A DNA stretch of 64,000 nt. It comes from a bacterium. Lineage in GTDB: Bacteria; Bdellovibrionota_C; UBA2361; SZUA-149; JAQTWB01. Below are positions 12,009-16,038 of this stretch, one piece after another. The DNA lies in the NCBI GenBank assembly GCA_028689495.1, contig JAQTWB010000005.1:1-64000 (forward strand). Reading direction: 5' to 3'. Both the position numbers and the translations under genes were made by a program. The stretch's first letter is position 1; each line of letters begins with the position of its first letter. The notes beneath the pieces were generated by a model. The model was not told the DNA's origin, searched no databases, and worked only from the letters and a program-made list of their open reading frames with translations.

Positions 12009-12039
12009 TACATGGCTCAGGTAAACCCTGAGCCATGTA
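12009..12039 (-). terminator. Strong hairpin terminator after the 12047 gene
   Basis: TACATGGCTCAG and CTGAGCCATGTA pair perfectly over 12 bp with a 7-base loop, eight bases past the stop of the minus-strand gene at 12047. It closes the three-gene unit 15581-12047. Confidence 0.75.
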
Positions 12040-12046
12040 GTGTAGT

Positions 12047-14023
12047 TTACCTGTCGGCAAAATTACCAACTGGCTTGTCGTCCGTACCAGGCAGGCCCCA
12101 TTGTGTTACCACAACGTTTGCTTCTGGTGTTCGTTCAAAGTGATTGCCATCGTCTGGTCGGTATACAGTCAGGCGATCGCGTGAATCATCAGAGCTTTCA
12201 CCAGCTTCAACGATTCCTGGGATATCGCCCGGCAGGCCGAAGGGGACAACTATTGGTACGTTGTTTGAGCTGAAACGGATAAACCAGTTTCCATCGCGAT
12301 AAACAGATACGTCGTCAATGTCATCTCCGTCAAAATCACCTAGCAGGAAGTCGTCTCCGGGGAGTCCGAACTGCTCGGCGTTACCAGCTCCGGAATTGCC
12401 TGCCAGTGCTCCTTCGCGGTTAAACCCACTGGATGAGTAGAGGGTGTACCAGATGCCAGTATTTTCGTCGATGACAATCATATCCGCTCGACCATCGCCA
12501 TCTCGGTCGGCGACTTTCGGAGTATGGCTTGGCAGCCCCCATTGGCGAACGAGCAGGTGAGATGAGCTTGCTCCGTATGCTTGCTGGATGTCTCCTCCGC
12601 TGGAGAGAAAGACGAACCAGAGGCCATAAGTTGGTCTCCAGACTGCGAAGTCAGCCAGGCTGTCTCCATCAAAATCACCAGCAAGCGGTACGTCTCCAGT
12701 CAGTCCCCACTGGACGATTCTTGCTACCTGAAAACCGGTGCTGGACAACTTGATGAACCAGGTTCCAGTTGAAGGTCTCCAGACAGCGAGATCGGTCTGA
12801 CTGTCTCCATCGTAGTCAGCCGGGACCGTGACATCTCCAGGAAGCCCCCATTGTATGCTCTCGAAATTACTGGTGGTCTGTTCGTCTGCACCGCGATAAC
12901 GAATAAACCAGGAGCCAAGCGAGTCGCGATAGATAACCTTCTCCGAGTGGCCATTATCATCGAAATCGTTGCTGGAGTTACCGCTTTTGATTGAGATACG
13001 GCGGGCAACCAATGAGTTATCATTTTGTCTTTCCGCCTTTAGTTCGACAACGGTGCCGGTTTGAACATCAGATAATTGAGCAGCCACATTATGTTTACGG
13101 CGAACGATAGTCTGTCCGTTTATCGCAGCGGTTACTCCTCGGACTGTAATGCTGCTGTCGGAGATCAATGACACAGGACCCCGGACCTCTACTTCGTTGC
13201 CATCATGATCTTCCAACTCAATTTTTCTGGCAATGAACAAGTTGCCTTCCTGAATAAACTTGATTTCAACCATTGCGCCAACACTAAAAGAATCGATTGT
13301 TGTTGGGAAACTGTTTTCATCTTCAAAGCGTGTTGTCGCGGTGACCGAGTAATCACGACCATCTACAGTTATAGAAGTTGGACTGATTGAGGCAATTCTT
13401 CCCACTACTTCGACATCGTTGATTTTGTCAGAAAAGTCATCCCCATCATCGTTTCCATCGTCATCTCCGCTGGCGCTGTCTTCTCCGAGTTTCAACTTAA
13501 TTTTGTTGGCGATCGTTGGGGATGAAGAGCTGAATTTGACCTCAACTTTGCTGCCGATTGTGATTGCTGAAAATAAAATGGCCTGTCCGTTGGAATCGGC
13601 AATCAATGTGCTGTTGTTGATGTCGAAACTTTGCCCTTGAAGAGAAATGCGACTTGCGCTGATTTCGGTAACCAGGCCTTCAATTTCTTGCAATAGGGAG
13701 CTGTTCGACTCATGCTCCAGTTCCAGAGAATCGGCAATGAGGGAGCCACCAACAAAAATACCCTTTGCTTTCACTCCGTCTCCAACAGTAAAGGCAGTGT
13801 AGGATATGTGATGACCAAATCCATCTTCAAACTCAGTGGAGTTATTGATTAGATATTCGACAGCATCGACAACAAAAGACGAACTGCTTTTTGTTGTCAA
13901 TATTCCGCGAGTGATGATGTCCGAGTCATCCGCAGAGGCGAGGTTTGTGTATAACGTCAGCGAGAGCAGTAGTACGCTGACCCTACTTAGGGTTTTGCTT
14001 AAAATTGTTGTTGGTATTTTCAT
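12047..14023 (-). CDS. Secreted protein with four DUF5666 repeats and a C-terminal FG-GAP/VCBS-like beta-propeller
   Basis: Residues 1-31 form a Sec signal peptide ending near NLASA. Four related domains of about 70 residues follow (roughly 37-105, 113-180, 205-275 and 280-350), each with a GxVxxIsxxxItVxGxxxxI pattern typical of DUF5666. Residues about 365-655 contain five or six blades with WGLPGD or QWGL and calcium-loop motifs DYDGDSQTD, DFDGDSLAD, DRDGDGRAD and DFDGDDIDD, as in integrin-like propellers. It is probably exported and calcium-stabilised, with an adhesive or carbohydrate-binding role as inference. The start has AAGGGAATT upstream. It is last in a unit with the lipoprotein and the DUF6502 gene. 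Confidence 0.85.
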   Translation of the reverse strand: MKIPTTILSKTLSRVSVLLLSLTLYTNLASADDSDIITRGILTTKSSSSFVVDAVEYLINNSTEFEDGFGHHISYTAFTVGDGVKAKGIFVGGSLIADSLELEHESNSSLLQEIEGLVTEISASRISLQGQSFDINNSTLIADSNGQAILFSAITIGSKVEVKFSSSSPTIANKIKLKLGEDSASGDDDGNDDGDDFSDKINDVEVVGRIASISPTSITVDGRDYSVTATTRFEDENSFPTTIDSFSVGAMVEIKFIQEGNLFIARKIELEDHDGNEVEVRGPVSLISDSSITVRGVTAAINGQTIVRRKHNVAAQLSDVQTGTVVELKAERQNDNSLVARRISIKSGNSSNDFDDNGHSEKVIYRDSLGSWFIRYRGADEQTTSNFESIQWGLPGDVTVPADYDGDSQTDLAVWRPSTGTWFIKLSSTGFQVARIVQWGLTGDVPLAGDFDGDSLADFAVWRPTYGLWFVFLSSGGDIQQAYGASSSHLLVRQWGLPSHTPKVADRDGDGRADMIVIDENTGIWYTLYSSSGFNREGALAGNSGAGNAEQFGLPGDDFLLGDFDGDDIDDVSVYRDGNWFIRFSSNNVPIVVPFGLPGDIPGIVEAGESSDDSRDRLTVYRPDDGNHFERTPEANVVVTQWGLPGTDDKPVGNFADR

Positions 14024-14044
14024 GTAAATTCCCTTTATTGTTTT

Positions 14045-14719
14045 TTACCGGTCTTCATCTGTTAATTTGTCTTCCCTTTCATCTTCATTTTTATCTTCTT
14101 CGTGGGCATCCTCGAGCTCTTGTTCCTGTTTATCGTCCGAAATTTTGTCTGTTTCCTGCTCGTTTATCTTGTTTTCATCTTCGTTAACCCCGTCGTTCTC
14201 GTCATCCTCGGTTTCATTTCGATCTTCCAGGTGATCATCTGAACTTTCGTCTTCCGATTCGTTTTCGTCGATTTTTTCGTCGTCAGAATTATTCTTGTCC
14301 TCGTTGTTATTATCATCGTTATCATCGTCTTCTTCGATTCTTGTCTGTCGTATATCAGATGAATCTTCATCAATCTGAAAGTCAGCGATGATGCGCGATG
14401 TTGTTGGTTGGATGTTAGTCACGGTTGAGCTGTAGGACGATGACGGAGTGTCGAAAAGATAGGTCAGGGTGTCTCCATGAGCGTTTGATTCAAAGCTATA
14501 GAAGCCATCATTATCCGTATAAGCTGAATCACCTGACTCAGCTATCGAGACTAGCGCGCCAGAGATCGGTTCGCCCGTGAGGGAGAGGAGGATGCCCTCA
14601 TGCTTTAATCCACCTGTTCCACTGGAGCCACCGCCGCATCCGCAGATTAGCAGCAAGCTGAAGAGTATCAGAGCTAGCGGCACTTTTCGTAACAGGAAAT
14701 TAGCTGTTTTCTGTTTCAT
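14045..14719 (-). CDS. Lipoprotein with a carboxypeptidase-regulatory-like domain and a long acidic tail
   Basis: The N-terminus LALILFSLLLICGCGGG is a lipoprotein signal with the lipidated Cys near residue 27 or 29. Residues about 38-110 resemble a carboxypeptidase-regulatory-like beta-sandwich (GEPISGALVSIAESGDSAYTDNDGFYSF). From about residue 120 to the end the sequence is almost only Asp, Glu, Asn, Lys, Ser and Gln (over 100 residues), an extreme low-complexity acidic region that could bind calcium or other cations outside the cytoplasm. It overlaps the upstream DUF6502 gene by 20 bases and is followed 21 bases later by the DUF5666/propeller gene, so the three are cotranscribed. Confidence 0.85.
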   Translation of the reverse strand: MKQKTANFLLRKVPLALILFSLLLICGCGGGSSGTGGLKHEGILLSLTGEPISGALVSIAESGDSAYTDNDGFYSFESNAHGDTLTYLFDTPSSSYSSTVTNIQPTTSRIIADFQIDEDSSDIRQTRIEEDDDNDDNNNEDKNNSDDEKIDENESEDESSDDHLEDRNETEDDENDGVNEDENKINEQETDKISDDKQEQELEDAHEEDKNEDEREDKLTDEDR

Positions 14720-15581
14720 TTTTATCTCTCTGCTGTTCGTTTATTATTGGCGTCGCCAGGTCTGGTGGGGCTTCTGTGATGCTAAAAGAACCCAGAACAA
14801 CTTTAGCGGCAAAAGTTTCCCCGGGAGCTTTCGGGTTGATATCGCGGTCGAAGTGCGAAAGGAATATTCGCGCTCGTTGGTGGAGGTCTGAGCCTTCATG
14901 GAGTAGCCAGTCGCGAATTTCTGGCAGATGGTCCGCGGCGATATTGTCGTATTCGGTGCGGATGTGCAGGTTTGCGGCCATAGGGCGACTGTTGTCACCG
15001 ATATTCTCTTCAACAGCCTCTGAGAGAGACAGGATGTCTTTAGCCAAGAGTTCATAAGCGGAGATACTGTCCGTTTTAAGGTTCTCAATGTTGGCCATAA
15101 GTTTTAAGCCAGACTCAGTTTTCTGTGCGGCCCCTGAGCGCTCAAGTTCAAAGAGTACAGAATAAGGGTTGAGATCGCTGCTGACTGAATTGACCAGTTG
15201 ATTGAACTCACTGTTTTTCCCGAAGTAGGCAAGGTTTTTTGGTTGGCCTGATGGATCGCGGAAATCAGGCATCGTTTGCCAGTTGTTCAAGATACGCTGG
15301 ATTACGCTGAGAGTTCGTCTCTGGCTAAGGCCAGGGCGATTTTCATCGGCCTCCTTTTTGATGCTGGCGATGTCCTTTCGGTGCACTCCGGTCATGGCTG
15401 AGATGCGGGAAATACTTGCGGTATCTCCTTGCCTTTTAAGTTCATCACTTGCTTCTTCCACCAGCAGTGCTTTTATCAAATCGAGCAAGGTCTGGAGGTG
15501 CAGGGAGTGGCGTAGGGCAAGGCGTATCGCCGGGCGCAACATGGTGCTGATAAAGTCAGTGATGCGATTGTCCTGTGCCAT
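14700..15581 (-). CDS. DUF6502 family protein
   Basis: The family has no established function. Features matching it are the opening MLRPAIRLALRHSLHLQTLLDLIKALLVEEA, the central TGVHRKDIASIKK (a helix-turn-helix-like segment near residue 65-80), a middle ILNNWQTMPDFRDPSGQP, and the end DIAADHLPEIRDWL. The HTH-like part suggests a cytoplasmic DNA-binding regulator of the two secreted proteins encoded downstream; this is inference. I use the ATG at 15581, giving the normal family N-terminus; a GTG at 15632 would add 17 residues. A perfect GTGGGAA palindrome sits just before that GTG and may be its own operator. Confidence 0.75.
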   Translation of the reverse strand: MAQDNRITDFISTMLRPAIRLALRHSLHLQTLLDLIKALLVEEASDELKRQGDTASISRISAMTGVHRKDIASIKKEADENRPGLSQRRTLSVIQRILNNWQTMPDFRDPSGQPKNLAYFGKNSEFNQLVNSVSSDLNPYSVLFELERSGAAQKTESGLKLMANIENLKTDSISAYELLAKDILSLSEAVEENIGDNSRPMAANLHIRTEYDNIAADHLPEIRDWLLHEGSDLHQRARIFLSHFDRDINPKAPGETFAAKVVLGSFSITEAPPDLATPIINEQQRDKNETENS

Positions 15582-15615
15582 TGTCGCCAGCGGTGAGCTC
15601 CGGTTTGTATCGTGA

Positions 15616-15632
15616 GTGGGAATTTTTCCCAC
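15616..15632. promoter_or_regulatory. 17-bp palindrome upstream of the DUF6502 gene
   Basis: GTGGGAA-TTT-TTCCCAC is a perfect 7-bp inverted repeat with a 3-base centre, 35 bases upstream of the ATG at 15581. It could be an operator for the unit 15581-12047 or a leader hairpin. Confidence 0.4.
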
Positions 15633-15849
15633 TATGTTACATGCTGCCCCAGGTTGGCTCTTGAAGTCAACTGGATAGTTGTTTTACCGCAAAATTTTCT
15701 CAATATCTCATCGCTAAATGAGTTGAGGGGGGGTATTTGTCGCTTGTCTGCCGTTGTCGCTTTGTGTTTAGACTCCCGCTTGAGGTCGTTGGCTGATGCA
15801 AGCGGGGAGTTGCATATCACTCTCTATAATTCATTCAAGTGGAGGTTCC

Positions 15850-16038
15850 ATGAATAAGCTTTTGATAATTAGTGCAATAATATTAACGAGTACGTTGGTC
15901 GCGGCTTGTGCCACAAAGAACGTTACGCCGTCTGAGTGCGGTTGCCGCCGGCCTGCTGCCAAGTGTGAGTCCTGCCAGTGTCAGGATCACAGCCAATGTA
16001 CATCTGAGAAGAATTGTGGCTGTACGGGAAAGAAATAA
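15850..16038 (+). CDS. Small cysteine-rich lipoprotein, metallothionein-like
   Basis: A 62-residue product with a lipoprotein signal (MNKLLIISAIILTSTLVAAC, lipidated Cys at 20). The mature part is only about 42 residues but holds eight more cysteines in CxC and CxxC patterns (ECGCR, KCESCQCQ, QCTSEKNCGC). Such density suggests metal binding at the envelope, possibly zinc, copper or cadmium. The start at 15850 has an ideal GGAGG five bases upstream. It converges with the amidohydrolase gene. I know of no named family for it. Confidence 0.8.
   Translation: MNKLLIISAIILTSTLVAACATKNVTPSECGCRRPAAKCESCQCQDHSQCTSEKNCGCTGKK

Follow-up and report, generated by a model that had tools for sequence, protein, structure and literature searches.

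A DUF6502 gene with a conserved upstream palindrome and an exported, motif-bearing neighbor in a genome of the Bdellovibrionota_C

The window analyzed here is a stretch of 64,000 nucleotides (positions 1 to 64,000 of contig JAQTWB010000005.1, GenBank assembly GCA_028689495.1) from a bacterium of the Bdellovibrionota_C lineage. Within it lie three minus-strand genes that encode a protein of the Pfam family DUF6502 (PF20112), a putative lipoprotein, and an exoprotein that combines DUF5666 domains (PF18914) with FG-GAP repeats. By computation, we describe the operon structure, a candidate operator conserved upstream of DUF6502 genes, the linkage of regulator to cargo, the specificity of a short cargo motif, and the predicted helix-turn-helix (HTH) fold of the DUF6502 protein. 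The three genes are one example of a widespread proteobacterial module that apparently has not been described before. It should be noted that the genome is a draft of 216 contigs with 5% estimated contamination, that most of the relatives used for comparison are metagenome assemblies, and that gene calls are mechanical.

The three genes and their products

The genes are tightly packed, as a preliminary description made from the letters of the sequence had it: The first two overlap by 20 nt, and 21 nt separate the second from the third (Table 1). The same description gave the unit a strong terminator. The hairpin 3' of the operon is indeed strong (−24.8 kcal/mol, z −5.9), but no T-run follows it on either strand and a terminator scan does not list it, and it is therefore not a standard intrinsic terminator. 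The DUF6502 gene probably starts at ATG 15581, because the N-terminus of the family alignment fits there, rather than at GTG 15632, which was the start chosen initially and which falls within the palindrome discussed below. With the start at ATG 15581, the palindrome lies outside the gene.

Table 1. Features of the DUF6502 locus, in window positions
Feature	Positions	Strand	Basis or remark
Palindrome AGTGGGAA-AAA-TTCCCACT, candidate operator	15615-15633		Centre 43 bp before ATG 15581; conserved before the DUF6502 genes of four lineages
DUF6502 protein, 293 amino acids, putative DNA-binding autoregulator	14700-15581	-	PF20112, 87.5 bits; AlphaFold model; alternative start GTG 15632
First HTH unit, residues 57-80	15342-15413	-	Model; residues 67, 69 and 70 track inner operator bases (covariation, suggestive only)
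Second, winged-helix-like unit, residues 125-161	15099-15209	-	Model; residue 138 tracks outer operator base (covariation, suggestive only)
Lipoprotein, 224 amino acids, first operon cargo	14045-14719	-	Sequence; weak CarboxypepD_reg match; homologous gene order in relatives
GTG motif C-GGGSSGTG, residues 28-36	14612-14638	-	Directly after lipobox; second of only two sites in this genome, both after DUF6502
CarboxypepD_reg-like domain, residues 42-105	14405-14596	-	Below curated cut-off
Acidic tail, residues 117-224	14048-14371	-	Sequence composition; 51% D/E
Exoprotein, 658 amino acids, four DUF5666 domains and FG-GAP repeats, second cargo	12047-14023	-	PF18914, 137.7 bits; FG-GAP_3, 31.3 bits
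Four DUF5666 domains (13724-13906, 13526-13681, 13217-13402, 12995-13183)	12995-13906	-	Profile; modelled as small OB barrels
Six QWGLPGD-type FG-GAP repeats with four DxDGDxxxD loops	12050-12853	-	FG-GAP_3, 31.3 bits against a cut-off of 26.9
13-bp perfect hairpin 3' of operon	12009-12039	-	Without T-run

The lipoprotein assignment is a prediction from the sequence, in which a hydrophobic segment is followed by the lipobox ICGC (the Cys at −2 is unusual). Carboxypeptidase regulatory-like profiles fall below their cut-offs in this protein (25.9 vs. 32.3 and 26.8 vs. 32.2 bits), so that we speak of resemblance only. Its acidic tail, put at more than 100 residues in the preliminary description, comprises 108. 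Likewise, the four-fold DUF5666 repeat joined to calcium-loop blades that was proposed for the exoprotein is borne out by four stretches that together exceed the curated PF18914 cut-off, by the FG-GAP_3 match, and by the four DxDGDxxxD loops.

The model of the full exoprotein has a mean predicted local distance difference test (pLDDT) score of 45, and the first three DUF5666 domains alone are confident. The modelled domains match the small oligonucleotide/oligosaccharide-binding (OB) barrel of CusF, with a template modelling (TM) score of 0.72 by target, a root-mean-square deviation of 1.6 Å and an E-value of 2.5e-3, as well as that of PilY2 (TM 0.65-0.67). DUF5666, the function of which is undescribed, is predicted to share a fold with these proteins. 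However, a CusF-like Met/His/Trp metal site is absent, as the four domains hold no Trp and one Met.

The palindrome and the DUF6502 protein

The perfect GTGGGAA palindrome noted upstream of the genes is present as described. Taken alone, it stands out from chance only modestly (when the 220-bp stretch that holds it was shuffled 1000 times, 11 of the shuffled sequences had a perfect arm of the same length, 8 bp); comparison across loci makes the case, and makes it strongly. The DUF6502 loci, some of which overlap, total 1.26 Mb and hold eight perfect matches to TGGGAA-N(1-5)-TTCCCA. Seven of these fall in the windows upstream of DUF6502 genes, for which the expected number is 0.26. A palindromic weight matrix, RTGKGAAAWTTTCMCAY, reaches at least 12 bits in 96 of 203 DUF6502 upstream regions. 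Because this matrix was trained on the sequences that it scores, the controls rather than the raw counts carry weight: At 12 bits, there were matches in 3/203 reversed sequences, in 5/197 regions 400-640 bp upstream, and in 8/1015 shuffled sequences. The matches are spread over Oligoflexia-like bacteria (58/137), alpha- (14/17), beta- (12/19), and gammaproteobacteria (12/30), where the class names follow the record titles of the centres and a locus or two may be misassigned. Upstream of other genes, 18/613 matches were found, a count that probably includes windows overlapping DUF6502 promoters. The palindrome is a candidate operator, conserved in front of DUF6502 itself in four proteobacterial lineages.

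There is variation around this pattern. The operator of Azospirillum lipoferum 4B (AZOLI_RS20800) is perfect and that of Methylocystis iwaonis good (17.8 bits); Rhizobium etli CFN 42 has none of this type. Some paralogues have other palindromes (TTAATTTGCATAATTTATGCAAATTAA in locus L103, ACCTTTAAAATAATTAGTTATTTTAAAGGT in L123). Within the genome analyzed here, there is no second copy of the palindrome with zero or one mismatch. A wider regulon of this operator in the genome was considered and rejected, as the site is single and sites with two mismatches number 16, compared with 10 for a backward-pattern control. No convincing sigma-70 hexamers were found near the operator.

The DUF6502 protein is a clear member of PF20112 (cut-off 27 bits; match over residues 13-271), a family without described function to which the operator, the predicted HTH units, and the cargo linkage are added here. 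Its AlphaFold model (mean pLDDT 85.2) contains two HTH units, the first with predicted helices at residues 57-64 and 68-80 and the second with predicted helices at residues 125-133 and 139-148 followed by a beta hairpin, which is the winged-helix pattern.

Regulator and operator were also compared for covariation, over ~260 alignment columns in 59 and then 104 pairs. The best-predicting DUF6502 columns all lie within or adjoin predicted HTH elements: residue 69 for operator position 6, residue 70 for position 8, and residue 138 for position 2. For position 7, the best column is residue 67 in the larger set and residue 62 in the smaller; for position 5, residue 69 is the top column among the 59 pairs and third among the 104. 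When the half-site is GGA, residue 69 is Lys in 59 pairs of the larger set vs. Arg in six, and when it is TGC or TGT, residue 69 is Arg in 39 vs. Lys in at most a few. Sister-pair and tree-independent contrasts are too few, and the covariation therefore counts as suggestive only that operator bases track residues of the HTH units.

Exported neighbors and the GTG motif

Whether DUF6502 and DUF5666 are conserved neighbors was a question raised at the outset, and they are, both in relatives of this genome and in alpha-, beta-, and gammaproteobacteria. In the relatives, DUF6502 is no more than 2.5 kb away, and always on the same strand, at 14 of 30 places with DUF5666, and at least six other genomes have similar three-gene loci (DUF6502, a motif-bearing lipoprotein with a DUF5666 domain of its own, and a DUF5666 protein). 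In the three proteobacterial classes, a DUF5666 protein is often encoded by the next gene after DUF6502, commonly with a 4-nt overlap; annotated pairs with this overlap are found in R. etli CFN 42, M. iwaonis, and A. lipoferum 4B. The FG-GAP end of the exoprotein is atypical, as related third genes carry another C-terminal domain that contains Cys. In locus L120 (6303-7403), and also in L077, L107, L118, L121, L122, and L159, the end of the third gene is a conserved region with two Cys (EYKxDLR...KKGxCDxD) that has no Pfam match.

More generally, an exported protein is the usual product of the gene that follows DUF6502. Its conserved element is a short motif, GG[G][STI]xGTG, located directly behind the signal peptide, lipobox, or prepilin segment. 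The motif takes the form CGGG[ST]xGT[GS] in the lineage of this genome, and EGGIGGTGIVG and its relatives in alpha-, beta-, and gammaproteobacteria. A loose version was found in an adjacent gene at 99/136 loci of the lineage itself, 14/16 alpha-, 14/18 beta-, and 21/29 gammaproteobacterial loci; three of the gammaproteobacterial loci missed by it read GGGETGTG. Recognized motif cargo is absent from 37 of the 136, partly owing to missed small genes and contig ends. Over all, 148 of 199 loci have an exported, motif-bearing neighbor (divergent in 4 of the 148), vs. 50 of 1014 control open reading frames with a hydrophobic N-terminus.

The specificity of the motif is also evident when it is searched as DNA. 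Across 46 genomes, there are 30 CGGG[ST]xGTG sites. Of these, 29 have a DUF6502 gene no farther than 1 kb away (25 sites are downstream of it, three divergent, and one upstream); the remaining site lies close to the end of a contig and has no DUF6502 in view. None was found in 14 genomes that lack DUF6502. The codons of the motif differ between copies, and conservation is therefore at the protein level. In the genome analyzed here, a slightly wider pattern occurs twice, once after each of its two DUF6502 genes. The second of these genes (L047, 6244-7119, on contig C15) is close behind another gene and has no recognized operator; the gene behind it encodes a CGGGTTGSG lipoprotein that has an acidic tail and lacks DUF5666.

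What the loci have in common is an export signal and the GGxxGTG motif; the cargo bodies are unrelated to one another. Some are lipoproteins that resemble carboxypeptidase regulatory domains and have tails that are acidic or rich in Ser. Flp-type prepilins were counted at 37 loci, under a permissive rule that lets in a few false positives (Flp_Fap matches are below their cut-off). Others are DUF5666 proteins, FecR-domain proteins with repeated GIGGTG, and lipoproteins of 63-66 residues that end in GIGGTGC plus up to three more residues. Burkholderiales cargo has up to six tandem copies of the motif. On the regulator tree, lipoprotein and prepilin cargo have been swapped at least five times.

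Individual loci show further variants. Very small putative lipoproteins are encoded after DUF6502 in L176 (2232-2423, 63 residues) and L177 (1292-1492, 66 residues), with the ends GIGGTGCGID and GIGGTGCP. In three Rhodobacteraceae loci (L162, L163, and L164), a gene for a fasciclin-domain lipoprotein (PF02469 in L163) adjoins DUF6502 divergently, and in L148 (7106-7846) and L149 (2240-3007) the gene directly before DUF6502 encodes a different type of lipoprotein, common to both loci (SLPYDxxKPR...).

A proposed autoregulated module and its alternatives

We consider it probable that these genes form an autoregulated regulator-exoprotein module, in which DUF6502 binds the palindrome before its own gene, sets expression of the operon, and thereby controls the output of exported GTG-motif cargo. 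The protein would probably bind in dimeric form, each subunit taking one half-site, with the first HTH unit reading the inner TG[G/T]GA bases and the second the outer base. It would most likely act as a repressor rather than an activator, because the operator is close to the gene start. The output would be cargo with GG[G][STI]xGTG just after its export or anchor signal (here the CGGGSSGTG lipoprotein and then the DUF5666/FG-GAP exoprotein), and the overlapping reading frames may keep regulator and cargo in step. The preliminary description, too, had DUF6502 regulating through the palindrome, for which the conserved operator and the predicted tandem HTH units argue.

Several points weigh against this interpretation. 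About half of the DUF6502 genes have no recognized operator, including the second copy in this genome and that of R. etli. Sister pairs showed no effect of residue 69 (four Lys/Arg contrasts), and the three to five tree-independent pairs, mostly in the same direction, were not significant. There is no significant match of DUF6502 to a known regulator fold (best E-value 0.06) or to an HTH family profile (HTH_29 matches weakly in 3 of 39 DUF6502 members). Also, the position of the operator is the sole basis for choosing repressor over activator. A HetR-like fold was considered, as HetR-DNA complexes are the top Foldseek matches, but was rejected at that E-value and a TM score of 0.26.

Regulators that are encoded with their target genes are a known general kind, winged-helix repressors among them. 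The DUF6502 loci resemble autoregulated examples in the HTH prediction, the palindrome just upstream, and the position of the regulator as the first gene of the operon. They differ in that DUF6502 matches neither MarR, HetR, nor any other named family, and in that the cargo is exported and has a common short motif. Pairs of a regulator and an exported peptide are also familiar, for example Rgg-SHP and PlcR-PapR. As in those pairs, the regulator gene adjoins the gene of an exported product, and some DUF6502 cargo is only 63-66 residues long; however, no tetratricopeptide repeat-type regulator is predicted, most DUF6502 cargo is large, and a returning peptide is unsupported.

There are two main options for what reads the GTG tag, namely an extracytoplasmic partner or DUF6502 itself, sensing unexported cargo. 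Under the first, GGxxGTG would be a sorting, processing, or attachment tag with a reader encoded elsewhere, and DUF6502 would be a plain, linked local regulator. This has a nearly even chance of being right. The motif comes immediately behind a signal peptide, a lipobox, or a prepilin segment, it can be repeated, and it stays while cargo bodies vary. However, no gene for such a partner turned up next to the modules, the tag persists in cargo that is soluble, lipid-anchored, or of prepilin type and has no known common route, and the tight tie of the tag to DUF6502 is left unexplained.

Under the second option, DUF6502 would be a cargo sensor as well as a regulator, binding the GGxxGTG of unexported cargo with a resulting change in DNA binding, so that production is coupled to export. 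The motif is the sole element common to otherwise unrelated cargo, is almost exclusively beside DUF6502, and persists even in the 63-66-residue lipoproteins, and overlapping frames place regulator and cargo together. Nevertheless, we regard this option as unlikely: Contact between DUF6502 and the motif has no support, the motif is extracytoplasmic after export, and the tandem copies in Burkholderiales cargo fit a structural or binding role outside the cell equally well. It is similarly improbable that DUF6502 proteins, of which a genome can encode up to 23, are dedicated sensor-regulators for a tagged class of exported proteins (lipoprotein, prepilin, OB-fold, and FecR-type), each recognizing the tag of its own cargo before export and adjusting production accordingly.

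More doubtful still is that the palindrome belongs to another regulator and that DUF6502 has some other cytoplasmic role, such as helping translationally coupled cargo. This would fit the lack of a significant match to a known regulator family, but paralogues have different palindromes, operator variation tracks residues of the predicted HTH units, and the palindrome site is unique in this genome. The calcium-rich surface complex initially proposed for the products, to which the four DxDGDxxxD loops and the acidic tail would lend themselves, is a poor prospect and is unsupported as a shared function, as the calcium loops and propeller were seen in this copy alone, related third genes lack the FG-GAP part, the acidic tail is variable and missing from many cargos, and there is no sign of complex formation.

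Returning to the autoregulated module, DUF6502 was found among the relatives of this genome in 32 of 97. It was also found in 76 of 274 genomes sampled from the class of a gammaproteobacterial centre, and in 14 of 80 and 11 of 61 from the orders of a Burkholderiales and a Jannaschia centre, respectively. The collection scan used a narrower alignment, since alignment A1 was too divergent. The family is strongly expanded in some relatives, with 23, 19, and 17 matches in single genomes (G009, G038, and G012). Anti-phage defence was considered and set aside, as there was no PADLOC match. Divergent from the operon, on the plus strand (15853-16038), is a gene for a 61-residue, Cys-rich putative lipoprotein (MNKLLIISAIILTSTLVAACATKN...CGCRRPAAKCESCQCQ...) without a Pfam match.

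The DUF6502 family, together with the operator and the tagged cargo, appears to be undescribed. The literature searched, which omits most subscription-journal papers, does not mention DUF6502, PF20112, or the operator; the string GGIGGTG occurs there in one review of antifungal peptides, which is not relevant, and DUF5666 appears in four papers, in at least two of them only in gene lists. The findings give the widespread DUF6502 family a testable function, with a predicted operator and a cargo tag, GGxxGTG, and tie DUF5666 to it. If the tag is indeed the ligand of the regulator, this would be a new coupling of gene expression to protein export.

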